This document shows, one piece after another, positions 28,190-34,791 of a stretch of 64,000 bases of DNA (positions within the stretch are counted from its first letter, which is position 1; each line of letters starts with the position of its first letter). The stretch is from NCBI RefSeq assembly GCF_008329945.1, contig NZ_CP035807.1, forward strand, positions 3,596,001-3,660,000, given 5' to 3'. Below the pieces are notes generated by a model. That model was not told the origin of the DNA. It ran no database searches and was given only the letters and a program-made list of their open reading frames with translations. The position numbers were made by a program, and so were the translations under genes. The stretch comes from Thiospirochaeta perfilievii. Lineage in GTDB: Bacteria > Spirochaetota > Spirochaetia > DSM-2461.

Positions 28190-30039
28190 TTAAATTAAAT
28201 TGTTTTCTGCTAAATATCTACCATACTCTTTATCTACAGTAGCAATATGCTCTATTAACCATGTAACAACTTTATCCTGGATATCTATTAGGATTAAAGC
28301 TTCATAATCTCCATTTTTAATTCTCTCCTGGATATCTCTAAAGTCATCTTCATACTTTTTATGAAGCTTTTTATGTTGGTCAAGTTTAGGATATTTATGT
28401 TTTTCAAGTAACTTCTCTTCATCCCTAAAGTGGTAATCTATATAATCACTTAAATAGTTACTAATCTCAATTAAGTTGTATTTTTTGTTACGATCTAACA
28501 TTGCTACTAAGAGGGAGTTAATTCTTTTAAATAACTCTTTATGTTCATCATCCATATCTTTTACATCTACAGATAGTAGATCAGACCAGTCTATCTCTGC
28601 TGTAATATCCTTCTCTTTAACATCAACACCAGTATTTAAGTTTTTAGTCTCTAAATATAAAAGACTATTATTATACTTATTCTGATTCCCAAATGCTGAA
28701 ACCATTAGTGATATGGAGTTTAACTCCTCTGTTAAAGATGAAACATTTGAGATGACCTCATCTGTTTTATGGGAAGATATATTAACCTGCTTTATCGAGC
28801 TGCTTATAACCCCTGAACCATTGGATATATTATCCGTAGCATCTTTAACTGAATTACTAGTTGAAACTAATGTTGATACTGATTCTAGAATCTCATTACT
28901 TGCTATAGATAACTCATTCATGGATAGTGAGACCTCTTTTAGAGATGATGCAAATAAATCAACTTCGTGTCTTATAACTTTAAAACTCTTTTGACTCTCA
29001 TTACCAGCTTCAGATGCGAGATAAATCTTATCCCTAGTCTCTTTTAAGCTCTCCCCTATTCTTCCCGCATTTGATCCTGTCTCTTCTGCAAGATTCCTAA
29101 TCTCGTGGGCTACAACTGAGAATCCCTTTCCTGCATCACCAGCATGGGCTGCCTCTATTGAAGCATTCATAGCCAGTAGATTTGTTTGGGAAGCGATATT
29201 ATTGATAATATCAACCATACTCATCATATCTTCTGCTTTAGATAGAATCTCCTGAATAAAATGGTTTGTATTTTCAACTTTTTGACCACCATTATTAATA
29301 AGGGATGTTAGAGTATCCATAGTTGATAATCTTCCCTCACTAATTTTTGCTACATTGGAAATTGATCCCATAATCTCTTCAGTCGATGCACTAGACTGCT
29401 CTATAGCTTTAAACTGAGTTTCAACCTCTATGGTTAACTGGTTAACTGCAGATAGAATATTCTCTACAGATGATGATGCATTACTAACAGCATCTAATAA
29501 CTCTGCACTGTTATTTTTAAGATCACAGATCTCTTCATTAATATTTTTTATTGCATAGGTACTATCCTTAGAGGACTTGTTTAAGTGAAGACTTAAGACT
29601 CTGTTCTTTTGAACAACTTCTGCAATATTTGCCACTGAAGATCTTAGATTTTCTATAAAAGAGTTAAATCCTGAGGATATAATACTTAGTTCACTCTTTT
29701 TGAAACAACTAGTTTTGATGATAATCCATCATTATCACTTTTTAAAACTTTAAACTTATCTGTAACTTCTTTTATTGAACGATTAATACCGAGATAATTT
29801 ATAATCCCTACTATAAGGACAATTAAAGATCCAACTAAACCAATAAGAAAAATAGTTCCCTGAGCCTTAGTTATCTGCCCAACTATCTGTTCTATTATCT
29901 GCTTTTCCTTAGCCCCAAGATTTAATTGTGACATAACAAAAGTTATCTTAGTTAAACTAATATTGGTAACAAAGTTTAATACTATAACAACTATAAAAGT
30001 AAAAAGCGTATACCCTAATATTTTAAATTTTATTTTCAT
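28190..30039 (-). CDS. Methyl-accepting chemotaxis protein with C-terminal hemerythrin domain (apparent frameshift)
   Basis: The 5' frame (30039-29686, 117 codons) encodes two membrane segments and a HAMP-like linker. The 3' frame (29635-28190) encodes the receptor signalling coiled coil, with the hairpin '[20 protein letters not shown]' and 'EIRNLAEET', and a bacteriohemerythrin domain over its last ~130 residues. That domain has the iron ligands His in MDDEHKE, HFRDEE, HxxLH and [10 protein letters not shown]. One extra A in the run at 29697-29701 would join the frames through '[20 protein letters not shown]', so they are one gene. The periplasmic loop is short (~50 residues), so sensing is probably internal, with O2 or NO through the di-iron site. 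Confidence 0.85.
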
Positions 30040-30087: not shown

Positions 30088-32049
30088 TTAAGATTGATTA
30101 TCTTTATTGATATCCAATACAAAGTAAAGATGATCCATCTTAATAAATTCCTCTAATTGTTTTATATATAATTGGGTTAAGATGCTATCGTATTTATACA
30201 TATTTGCTAACTTAAAATAGTTAAGAGATTTTACAAACTGTTTCTGATCAATATATTTAATGGCACTTCTAAATGCATCTAAAAAGAGCTTATCATAGTT
30301 ACACTTATTAGATAGAATTTGATAAAGTTTAATAGGCTCTTCTTCATCTTGTAGTAAAACTGTACCTAGACAGACTACCTCATTTAGTTTTAATGATGAT
30401 AGAGTTAATGATTTTTCTGTAATAATCATCTCGACATTAAAAAGGGACTGGAAGTGATCAATTTTATTTAATATTCTAGTTACACTTGATATGGCAGTAG
30501 CCTGTATCCTATTTTCTGAACCTATAGTCCCAAGAACTATCTGGCCAAAATGTATTGATAATCCAATATCCAGTTTTATACTATTTAATACAATATCACT
30601 TATAGATCTACCTGCATTAATTGCATCATCTGGAGAGTTTTTAAATATGACTTTTACTCCATCTCCACCGTAGGATTCAACATAACCGTTAAACTGATCT
30701 ACCTGCTTTCCTATAATTTCATAAAAGCGATTGATTAGGTTAAAGCTCTCCTGGGATGATAATCCTTCAGTTAACTGAGTAAAACCTCTTATATCTATAA
30801 ACATCATTGTGGCAATCTTTATTACTGAGTCTCCAGGTGGTCTATCCTCTAATAGAGTATTTCCTATATCATTTAATATATCCAATGGGACAAACTTAGT
30901 AAAAGCGTCTCGAATATTCCTATTTTTTAACTGTTTAATACGGATGTACTCTTGGAGTTTTTTACTTTCTTGAGCTATGAATATAAATATTACAATTAAA
31001 CTAAAAAGAACAACATAGGATCCTAGTAGATTATAACTTATGTGATCCTGGTAACCTAAAATTATAGATAAAAAGTATAAATTTACTGAAAGAAGAAGTG
31101 CTAAGGACAAGTTTCTTTTATTAAAAAGAGCCTGAAATAGTCTTAAGTTTAAGTATAAAGCTGATATATAAACAATATAGTGTTGTAATAGGCCAATACT
31201 GATAAAATTAGTTATCTTAAATGGAAGCAAGAAAAATATAGAAACAAAAACCATTAGATATATTATCATCTTAGATGTAAAATTCGAGAATTCATAGGGG
31301 TAGAGATATCTTAAAAAAAGAAGTATAAAAACTATTCCATAAATTTCACTAATACCTATAATTCTATAACTTAAAGCCCAGCTGAAATTTGATAAAAAAA
31401 TATTTGAATTTGAGTTTAAAAAGAATAGCCTACTAGCATTTGTTATTGTAAAAAGTGTTATAAATATATTATATCTATTTTTGATATTAACTATGGAAAG
31501 TAAAAAAAAGAGTATAGAGCATATAAATAGAGATCCAATAATTAGATAGTCAAGACTTCTATTTTTTGTATAGATTCTTTGAATATTCCTACTCTCTCCT
31601 ATTAAGATCCATTTATATAGAGACCTATCCATATTTATATAATTACTAAATTCGATAAAGATATGTGTAAAACTCTCCTTCGGGGTAAAGAAGATTATGC
31701 CCTCTTCAATTTTAGGTTTATAGTTAGTCTTTACCTTAGATATAATCCCTGAACTCTTATAAACATTATTGTCTATCCAAATTTTAGATGCTGTAGAAAA
31801 GCCCGATGTATAAATGGCGTAGGATTTTCCTTTAACTAGATTTAGCTCTATAAAGAGAGTTCCATATTTTATACTGTTATTATACTCTTTAAGATTTACA
31901 CCTTTTATCCCTTCTAGATTTATGTTATCACTTTTTACAAAAACATTTTTATATAGTGTAATATCATCTTTACTTACTGTATATGGATCAATATTACTAC
32001 ATGATAAAAATAGGCTTAATAGAGTTAAAGTTAATAATACTTTTTTCAC
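30088..32049 (-). CDS. Membrane class III nucleotidyl cyclase subunit retaining metal Asp residues (C1-like)
   Basis: A 653-residue protein: a lipobox-like signal (LFLSC, Cys17), an extracytoplasmic ~150-residue domain, seven membrane segments (about 168-358, 7TMR-DISM type), a short coiled linker and a class III cyclase domain (about 408-540). Both metal ligands are present: Asp419 in FIDIRGFT and Asp463 in GGDGV. Lost are the base-selecting Lys (Ser459), the transition-state Asn (Arg525) and Arg (Lys529). Alone it should not form a complete active site, but it can supply the metal half. The ATG overlaps the stop of the next cyclase gene (ATGA), so the two are made together. About 110 residues follow the cyclase domain. 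The product is predicted to be cAMP from the partner's Lys/Thr pair. Confidence 0.88.
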   Translation of the reverse strand: MKKVLLTLTLLSLFLSCSNIDPYTVSKDDITLYKNVFVKSDNINLEGIKGVNLKEYNNSIKYGTLFIELNLVKGKSYAIYTSGFSTASKIWIDNNVYKSSGIISKVKTNYKPKIEEGIIFFTPKESFTHIFIEFSNYINMDRSLYKWILIGESRNIQRIYTKNRSLDYLIIGSLFICSILFFLLSIVNIKNRYNIFITLFTITNASRLFFLNSNSNIFLSNFSWALSYRIIGISEIYGIVFILLFLRYLYPYEFSNFTSKMIIYLMVFVSIFFLLPFKITNFISIGLLQHYIVYISALYLNLRLFQALFNKRNLSLALLLSVNLYFLSIILGYQDHISYNLLGSYVVLFSLIVIFIFIAQESKKLQEYIRIKQLKNRNIRDAFTKFVPLDILNDIGNTLLEDRPPGDSVIKIATMMFIDIRGFTQLTEGLSSQESFNLINRFYEIIGKQVDQFNGYVESYGGDGVKVIFKNSPDDAINAGRSISDIVLNSIKLDIGLSIHFGQIVLGTIGSENRIQATAISSVTRILNKIDHFQSLFNVEMIITEKSLTLSSLKLNEVVCLGTVLLQDEEEPIKLYQILSNKCNYDKLFLDAFRSAIKYIDQKQFVKSLNYFKLANMYKYDSILTQLYIKQLEEFIKMDHLYFVLDINKDNQS

Positions 32050-33992
32050 TTCTCATTATCCTCAAGCTTTTTATTTTGGTAGATAAGTCCGAGATAGTAG
32101 TTGGTGGGAGTGTGATATTTATACAGTGATTTAATTCTTGTTAGAACACCTTCTAATTCATATAGAGGACTATAATTAAGCTTTTGCATTGTTAAACTAA
32201 ATAGTTTATCAGCCTCTGTTGGTTCACTGGTATTAACAGAGTATATACCTATGTATTTTATCTTACCTTTAAGTTTTACCCGTCCCATAAACATTAAATT
32301 ATATATAGATTTATTTTTAATCTCGTTATAAACACTTTCGCTAATTAATATATTTTTATCTATTTTATTTGTAAATGAGCTTATCCTACTTGCAGTATTT
32401 ACAACACTGGAGATTACTGTGGCATCTACTCTTTTATTATCCCCTACAATACCAATATATTGATTTCCTAAATGTATTCCTGCTCTAACAACTATAGGAT
32501 TTTGTCCCTTATTAGTTTTATTAAAATCTATAATAGCTTTATTTATCTCTATCATTGCATTAATTCCATCTTCAGGTGAGCCTGGAAAGAGCGCCATCAT
32601 AGTTTCATCAATAAATTTATCTATAAATCCATTATGTTTTTTAATTATGGGAGAGGTTATAGCGTAATACCTATTTAAAAGATCTATACTATACTCTGCA
32701 CTATTAACTCTTACGTATTTTTGAAAGTCCACAATAGTTGCAAAGATTATTGTCATTTTTTTCTCTACCCCATCTCCCTTTTTTATTGTAAGAAGATCAC
32801 CTAAACCAACTGTTTTAAAAAAAGAGATAGGAACAAACTTATATAGGTATTTATTTATTTTTATATTCTCTTGGGTTAGTACTTTATTTTTTTCAATATT
32901 AAGTATCTCATTTCTAAAGATATTATAAAGCATAAAAAGTATAAAAAGCATAAGAGTTATAGACATAATATGTCTCTCTTTTGTATTAAAAAGTACTAGG
33001 CTTATATCATAGAATGCACCGGTACTGATAAAAATCAGGGAAATTAATAATTTAAACGAGTCTTTTAACTTCATCCTTACATAGATTATCAATAAAATTA
33101 TTACAAAGAATATTGTGATAGCACCAGTTACGAAATATGGAAACAAAATATATTTATATATGCTTCCCGGAAAAAAGATTGCTATTATAGGAAAGAGTCC
33201 TGTTACTAAAGAGATTAAATTCAATAACTTTTTATGTGGATTATATGTAAAATAGTTCTTAACAAATAGAATAAATAGACATGGGAGAGAGTAAACACAT
33301 ATATACTCAAGTTTTTGTACTAAATATCCACTTATTTCTGGTAATAGATAGAAGATTAATTTCTCATTTATAACTAAACCTCTAATTGTAAGGGCTAAAC
33401 ATAGTAGAGAGAAGTATAAATTGTACCTATCTGTCTTACTATTGAAAAATAGTATAAGGAAAAATATGGATATAATTAGGGAGGCTCCGGAGAAAAAGGA
33501 GTCCCTTATAAAGTTCTCCTCATGCATTTTTAACATAGAGTAACTACTACCAATAAATGGAGTATTCCGAATTCCACCCACAGGATCATTTTTATTAATA
33601 ATATCTAATTCTAATATGTTTAACCCTTTTTTTAGAGTAATAGGAATATAGTTTACTCGATATTGGTCTTCAAACCAGATTTTAACTCCGTTTAGATAGA
33701 GAGTATATTGGGAATTTACCTGTTTTGGAGTAAGTAAAAAGTTCTCTCTATCCTCGCTTAAAATATTTAATCGATATTTTACACGATTAGTATCTTCCTT
33801 CCATTGACCAGGAACTTTAGAGTATTTTGATGAGCTATCTTCTGTAGTTATAAACCAATTTCCAGATAGGGGAATAGGTTTATTTTTATCTATCTGAGCA
33901 CTTGTTAAGTCTATACTACCATTAACAACCCTAGAGGAGAGTCCGCCAAGTAGGATTATTAGGTAGATAATTAACAGTATTTGTTTTTTCAT
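32046..33992 (-). CDS. Membrane class III nucleotidyl cyclase subunit retaining Lys/Asn/Arg (C2-like)
   Basis: A 648-residue protein with the same architecture as its downstream neighbour: signal segment, extracytoplasmic jelly-roll-like domain, seven membrane helices (about 165-360) and a cyclase domain (about 410-540). Here the metal Asp residues are replaced, by Thr419 in IFATIVDF and Glu463 in FIDETMM. The substrate residues are intact: Lys459, Thr525, Asn532 and Arg536 (VVNTASRI). This is the mirror image of the other subunit; the two domains align without gaps across the metal-site region. It is the first gene of the pair and shares a 4-base overlap with the second. Confidence 0.88.
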   Translation of the reverse strand: MKKQILLIIYLIILLGGLSSRVVNGSIDLTSAQIDKNKPIPLSGNWFITTEDSSSKYSKVPGQWKEDTNRVKYRLNILSEDRENFLLTPKQVNSQYTLYLNGVKIWFEDQYRVNYIPITLKKGLNILELDIINKNDPVGGIRNTPFIGSSYSMLKMHEENFIRDSFFSGASLIISIFFLILFFNSKTDRYNLYFSLLCLALTIRGLVINEKLIFYLLPEISGYLVQKLEYICVYSLPCLFILFVKNYFTYNPHKKLLNLISLVTGLFPIIAIFFPGSIYKYILFPYFVTGAITIFFVIILLIIYVRMKLKDSFKLLISLIFISTGAFYDISLVLFNTKERHIMSITLMLFILFMLYNIFRNEILNIEKNKVLTQENIKINKYLYKFVPISFFKTVGLGDLLTIKKGDGVEKKMTIIFATIVDFQKYVRVNSAEYSIDLLNRYYAITSPIIKKHNGFIDKFIDETMMALFPGSPEDGINAMIEINKAIIDFNKTNKGQNPIVVRAGIHLGNQYIGIVGDNKRVDATVISSVVNTASRISSFTNKIDKNILISESVYNEIKNKSIYNLMFMGRVKLKGKIKYIGIYSVNTSEPTEADKLFSLTMQKLNYSPLYELEGVLTRIKSLYKYHTPTNYYLGLIYQNKKLEDNEK

Positions 33993-34032: not shown

Positions 34033-34791
34033 TTATTTACATTTATTGTAGTCATAGGAACTTGTTGATAAAAGTATTAATGCCGGAGTGTAAAAAATCC
34101 ATGTTGAACTTGTTGCAATCTCTTTAAAAATAATATTATCTGCTAATATTCCATAACCTACTGTAAAATCGCATAAGAAGAAAAAAGACATCCCAACTAG
34201 TATCATAATTGAGTTTACTTTTGGAAAATAACCTATTTTAATTGACAACCAAGAGATAAATACAGATAAACAAAGGACTAATGAGTAGAGTGTAAACCCC
34301 CACATTACCATTTGATTATCGATATTACTGTAAAAAACTATTTTTAATAAAAAGATATCTATTATTAGAAGAGTGATCAAAATTATCGATATATAGAGTT
34401 TATCTTTAAGAAAACTTTTAGAGTTAAAGTATTTTTTAATTCCATTGGAATTTCTAAAAGAGATGAGAAGTTGACCAATGGCAAATGTAACAATTCCAAG
34501 GGTTGTATGACCTGTTGTAAATGATAGATCTCCTAAAAATATGGCTATAAATGCAACTCTAATTCTCTTAGAGTCTGTTTTAGTAATAGAGCAGTTATAT
34601 GTAGTAAAAGCTAATAGTAGACATAAAAATGATACAGTTAATTTTAAGAACTTTACAACTCTAAATGAGTCTATATACCTAATTGTATTACTATTAATTA
34701 GAAAGAGTCTTGACCAATCAAGGGATACATAGGACCCAAACAGTATAAACATTATCCCTATAATAATTAAATTTTTTCTTTTTATATTCAT
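34033..34791 (-). CDS. Multi-pass membrane protein, YhhN/TMEM86-like
   Basis: A 252-residue protein with seven to eight hydrophobic segments. 'FLGDLSFTTGHTTLGIVTFAIGQ' near residue 91 and 'SFFFLCDFTVGY' near 205 resemble the repeated 'GD.....F..G...F..GQ' and '..FF..SD' motifs of the YhhN (lysoplasmalogenase-like) family. The match is suggestive, not certain. It lies upstream of the cyclase pair on the same strand, with 40 bases between, so cotranscription is possible. Confidence 0.5.
   Translation of the reverse strand: MNIKRKNLIIIGIMFILFGSYVSLDWSRLFLINSNTIRYIDSFRVVKFLKLTVSFLCLLLAFTTYNCSITKTDSKRIRVAFIAIFLGDLSFTTGHTTLGIVTFAIGQLLISFRNSNGIKKYFNSKSFLKDKLYISIILITLLIIDIFLLKIVFYSNIDNQMVMWGFTLYSLVLCLSVFISWLSIKIGYFPKVNSIMILVGMSFFFLCDFTVGYGILADNIIFKEIATSSTWIFYTPALILLSTSSYDYNKCK

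Follow-up and report, generated by a model that had tools for sequence, protein, structure and literature searches.

Two overlapping genes of Thiospirochaeta perfilievii, here called A and B, very probably encode an obligate heterodimeric class III adenylate cyclase resembling the C1/C2 type, with two sensors and one active site. They lie on the minus strand of the window, the stretch of 64,000 nucleotides analysed here. The residue split between the two proteins, its conservation in several pairs, the linkage of the genes, the purifying selection in close Treponema pairs and the natural B-A fusions are observed. From them we infer that A dimerises with B and that the pair produces cAMP, senses ligands and has a single-site stoichiometry.

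On this strand, the reading frames place gene B first (33992-32046, ATG at 33992, 648 amino acids) and gene A second (32049-30088, GTG at 32049, 653 amino acids). B is the C2-like subunit and A the C1-like one. Their overlap consists of the four bases GTGA (32046-32049, minus strand), with the start of A within the stop of B. These coordinates and the four-base overlap had been given by the initial annotation, and both are borne out, the strand being minus. The overlap likely couples the translation of A to that of B, and an overlap of the same length is common to the pairs L075, L076 and L077. About 40 bases upstream of B, there is a gene for a membrane protein of 252 amino acids (34033-34791, minus strand) with no Pfam match at E 0.001, and it is not found beside the L075 or L077 pairs. 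The region 28190-30039 (minus strand) holds an ORF of 117 amino acids with two hydrophobic stretches (30039-29686). It is followed in another frame by an MCP/hemerythrin ORF of 481 amino acids (29635-28190), and the reading frame of the latter extends without a stop upstream of the GTG start. This looks like one chemotaxis receptor split by a frameshift, or like an assembly error.

Each of the two proteins presents a signal sequence, an extracytoplasmic domain, 7TM (predicted in the case of A) and a class III cyclase domain. Both exceed the curated cut-off of PF00211 (Guanylate_cyc, 21.9 bits): B with 58.2 bits and A with 23.7 bits (E 4e-5), a weak match that passes nevertheless. In sequence searches, the cyclase domains of A and B both align with class III adenylyl cyclases of known structure. 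B matches 7TMR-DISM_7TM (PF07695, E 5e-18). A has no PF07695 match at E 0.001. Its AlphaFold2 model (mean pLDDT 83) shows a beta-rich N-terminal extracytoplasmic domain, then a helical membrane bundle and a cyclase fold, and class III cyclases are the nearest solved structures. The bundle is consistent with 7TM. The proposal that each arm carries its own 7TM and extracytoplasmic part agrees with the family match of B and with the predicted model of A.

The catalytic residues are divided between the two genes. We describe each site by six letters, in the order first metal Asp, Lys, second metal Asp, Thr, Asn and Arg. The code of B is TKETNR and that of A is DSDTRK. B has Thr419 (32736-32738) and Glu463 (32604-32606) in place of the first and second metal Asp. 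It retains the base-selecting Lys459 (32616-32618) and Thr525 (32418-32420), and the transition-state Asn532 (32397-32399) and Arg536 (32385-32387). It also has Lys575 (32268-32270), the equivalent of the triphosphate-binding Lys, at a position that we take to be K1065 of mammalian C2. A retains the metal Asp419 (30793-30795) and Asp463 (30661-30663). Ser459 (30673-30675) replaces the base-selecting Lys, while Arg525 (30475-30477) and Lys529 (30463-30465) replace the transition-state Asn and Arg; all these codons are on the minus strand. The residue calls of the initial annotation are all correct, and the base-selecting Thr, absent from it, is retained in A too (Thr518). It had also given the same residue numbers to both domains. 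This holds through 463; beyond it, the numbers in A are 7 lower than those in B. Neither polypeptide has a complete catalytic set, as A lacks Lys, Asn and Arg, and B lacks both metal Asp. Read from sequence only, the set is complete across the two: Asp419 and Asp463 of A with Lys459, Thr525, Asn532 and Arg536 of B.

In the proposed mechanism, the A/B cyclase would be class IIIb-like, with Lys/Thr base selection. A would supply both metal-binding Asp, and B the base-selecting Lys and Thr, the transition-state Asn and Arg and the triphosphate Lys. One composite site would form at the A-B interface. The mirror site would be dead and could be regulatory. With a signal sequence, an extracytoplasmic domain and 7TM in each subunit, two sensors would converge on one site, and neither subunit would signal alone. 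Other combinations of A and B may keep a weak residual activity, because the change from Asp to Glu at position 463 of B is conservative and A retains Thr518. Thirteen matches to cNMP-binding domains are present in the genome, and these proteins are possible cAMP effectors.

The same split is present in the nearest relatives. A second pair in the same genome (G000:C1:152587-156497) reads SKETNR/DSDTRY for B/A, and a pair of the same genus (L075) reads TKETNR/DSDTRA. Identity to the window proteins in these two pairs is 38% for A and 43-47% for B, and their genes have the four-base overlap too. The replacing residues are themselves conserved: Ser459 and Arg525 are invariant in the three A proteins and Glu463 in the three B proteins. 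In the tree, the branching of A and B is congruent and the window copy branches first in both, so the two genes were duplicated together and passed on as one unit. L077 and L075 have common neighbours, named here by inspection: PHP-like and phosphoglycerate-mutase-like genes upstream and YebC-like and RuvC-like genes downstream. In a scan of genome contigs, the only pair closely related to these was L177 (Spirochaetales bacterium SZUA-382), the other matches being distant cyclase domains. In G099, the B profile matches a single cyclase domain, and there is no pair. The L076 pair reads NKDTNR/DRDTTQ, and its placement in the tree is not firm. The other PF00211 cyclases of the T. perfilievii genome retain D, D, N and R, apart from a single isolated and degenerate copy, an unpaired 7TM cyclase with the code DKNISQ (L079, 3659-5536; G000:C1, about 1010660-1012530), likely a pseudoenzyme.

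We surveyed 7TM-cyclase loci across the class Spirochaetia and the family, finding the cyclase domains by profile and reading the six positions. The loci were picked for their resemblance to A- and B-type proteins, so the following counts are not a random sample; many of the pairs also share descent. Same-strand adjacencies number 43. Of these, 28 are composite-site pairs, 14 are pairs without a complete site, and one is a chance adjacency. The last (L259) was rejected as a pair, as its neighbour is a different kind of cyclase. All 28 composite-site pairs present exactly one composite site and have the B-type gene 5' (28/28); 18 have the four-base overlap and two are fused. Adjacent pairs with the same split, which the initial annotation had proposed to search for in spirochaete genomes, recur in this set. 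Relatives in which both genes are complete, so that the losses would look like independent decay, were also looked for, and no surveyed pair has two self-sufficient partners.

Unpaired domains are self-sufficient in 55 of 70 cases. The 15 exceptions comprise four from two interrupted pairs (L268 and L329, whose A ORF is shortened and which were left out of the pair counts), four near contig ends (L333, L336, L353, L356), two of one multi-domain type (L271, L272) and five isolated ones (L079, L083, L097, L293, L363). It follows that 8 of these 15 are members of interrupted or contig-end pairs. The isolated L293 (3890-6124) is an unpaired 7TM cyclase with the code EKNTNR, in which both metal Asp are gone. 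In the pairs L343-L345, the gene order is reversed, with the A-type gene 5', and the base-selecting Lys of B is replaced by Asn.

The split in the window pair exceeds chance, because the other PF00211 cyclases of the genome, with one isolated exception, retain D, D, N and R, the split is kept in further pairs, and 28 pairs hold a composite site. A duplicated homodimeric cyclase might have decayed neutrally in each copy and given a coincidental split; both genes are divergent, and A matches PF00211 weakly (E 4e-5). This explanation is scarcely credible to us, given that three pairs, 38-47% identical, share the split and its invariant substitutes, and that the 28 complementary pairs include none with two complete partners. 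The substitution rates also argue against it. In close Treponemataceae (Treponema) pairs with a composite site, dN/dS is 0.07-0.19, for A and B alike. These estimates refer to the close Treponemataceae pairs, the divergence among the three pairs from the window genus being too high for them.

On the other hand, 14 Treponemataceae pairs lack any complete composite site and their genes are still adjacent. Among Treponema pairs, both partners are degenerate and still adjacent in L341, L346-L352, L354 and L355. In those tested (L348/L350/L352), dN/dS is 0.13-0.23. The tested site-less pairs are then also under purifying selection, so adjacency and conservation alone do not require catalysis. These maintained pairs are the main caution against reading function from conservation. 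They speak for a different account, in which both proteins are pseudoenzymes, a pair of 7TM receptors that binds nucleotide or signals by contact and makes no cAMP. Likewise, a solved P. aeruginosa structure, titled 'class III adenylyl cyclase-like ATP-binding protein', can be superposed on the two cyclase domains of the fused model described below, and it suggests that tandems without cyclase function can exist. Nevertheless, in the window lineage and the 28 pairs, one composite site has all its residues and the other site decays. A pseudoenzyme would have no need to conserve a complete composite site, which counts against this account, and we judge it unlikely.

The division of conserved residues extends beyond the six positions. 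We compared 23 pairs by blocks with 24 singletons as reference. In the metal block 419-463, residues conserved in singletons are retained in A and lost in B. In the block 518-536 and the [KR]GK motif, they are retained in B and largely lost in A. Two extra positions, presumably the equivalents of mammalian K1065 and R484, played no part in defining the A and B classes. The first is Lys or Arg in 20/23 B, 10/23 A and 23/24 singletons, and the second is Gly in 23/23 A, 3/23 B and 24/24 singletons.

Two Treponemataceae genomes carry B and A in one frame: L266 (1269 amino acids) and L267 (1310 amino acids). By eye, the L266 junction contains no in-frame ATG, GTG or TTG from the end of the B domain to the membrane helix of A, and this speaks for a real fusion. 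In L267, an in-frame ATG stands where A starts and A-runs lie nearby, and this fusion could be an assembly error. We modelled residues 392-1310 of L267 with AlphaFold2 (pLDDT 69, pTM 0.56, 9 alignment rows), discarding alignments with B rows on the A half, as judged by identities and invariant columns. The model superposes on C1/C2 of human AC9 over both cyclase domains (Z 34.6, 3.2 A, 413 residues). It is compatible with a C1/C2 dimer but does not prove one, because the program was trained on mammalian structures.

The fusions also bear on the choice of partner. A and B might each pair with a different protein, such as a self-sufficient 7TM cyclase from another locus of the genome, and act as regulators. 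Further class III cyclases are indeed present, including a self-sufficient 7TM relative at C1:1751854. However, the genes overlap, the pair was duplicated together, and B is fused to A in two relatives, which makes separate partners very unlikely. The heterodimer of A with B, already proposed by the initial annotation, is supported by the lack of surveyed pairs with two complete partners, by the conserved substitutes and by the low dN/dS in Treponema. The natural B-A fusions and the block-wise division of conserved residues add to this support, and the finding of split pairs is broader than was then stated.

To place the origin of the split, we built a full-length tree without the catalytic columns. 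A and B are sister groups inside three lineages, with singletons between the lineages. The support is 78 in the window genus (with long branches), 65 in the T. denticola-type group and 100 in a second Treponemataceae group. AU tests on the full-length data reject a single A clade (p 2.5e-5) and a single B clade (p 4e-105). The tree of the sensor and 7TM parts agrees, with A and B as sisters within lineages. The sequences therefore favour, rather than prove, several origins of the split in spirochaetes. It is also conceivable that the heterodimer arose once, in an ancient A/B duplication, and that gene conversion or convergence hides this single origin. The cyclase-only tree has poor resolution, and those of its branches with good support are compatible with one origin. 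Set against the AU tests and the sensor/7TM tree, we find a single origin rather doubtful, although it deserves consideration. We lean towards several independent origins: spirochaetes would have evolved half-site heterodimers of the C1/C2 type several times, by tandem duplication and reciprocal loss, and fused the halves at least once, as animal membrane adenylyl cyclases did. Some lineages would then have moved on to a pseudoenzyme receptor.

The closest likeness among known systems is to mammalian AC1-AC9. In both, the metal Asp come from one domain and the base-selecting residues, Asn and Arg from the other. Both have two membrane domains, with one catalytic and one degenerate site that in the window pair are predicted, and the fused Treponemataceae model superposes on AC9. 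The window pair differs in being two polypeptides, with single chains in the relatives L266 and L267 only. It has 7TM and large extracytoplasmic domains, whereas the mammalian enzymes are 6TM, and its base selection is by Lys/Thr instead of Lys/Asp. Moreover, its C2-like part comes first, and its origin would be independent. The unpaired 7TMR-DISM cyclases of Spirochaetia share the architecture and are the nearest tree relatives of the window pair. Unlike it, they have a self-sufficient DKDTNR site and are presumably homodimers. Rv1625c/Cya and other bacterial class III cyclases are also membrane-anchored, but these are homodimers with two equal sites (PMC9552081, PMC9433096), while the window pair divides its catalytic residues between two genes. 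Soluble guanylyl cyclase alpha/beta and the fungal NeoR/RGC are class III enzymes of two different subunits; they are eukaryotic and produce cGMP. RGC1 and RGC2 retain all catalytic residues, and split-residue heterodimers have been described in eukaryotes (PMC8815786). The P. aeruginosa protein (6YII) is also bacterial, and its chain covers the two cyclase domains of the fused model in the alignment (Z 27.3). Compared by title and structural alignment, it differs in being an ATP-binding protein by title. Its alignment indicates that tandem cyclase-like proteins are not wholly unknown in bacteria.

We found no report of a bacterial half-site heterodimer in the literature, which is weak evidence of novelty as subscription papers were mostly outside the coverage. 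Class III cyclases of bacteria are described as homodimers. According to a 2022 review, no fused dimer of this class is known from bacteria, and what is gained by duplicating and fusing the domains is raised there as a question (PMC9552081). The spirochaete loci offer the intermediate states: homodimer, split heterodimer, fused heterodimer and dead pair. With these states available, the question of duplication and fusion becomes testable in bacterial proteins.
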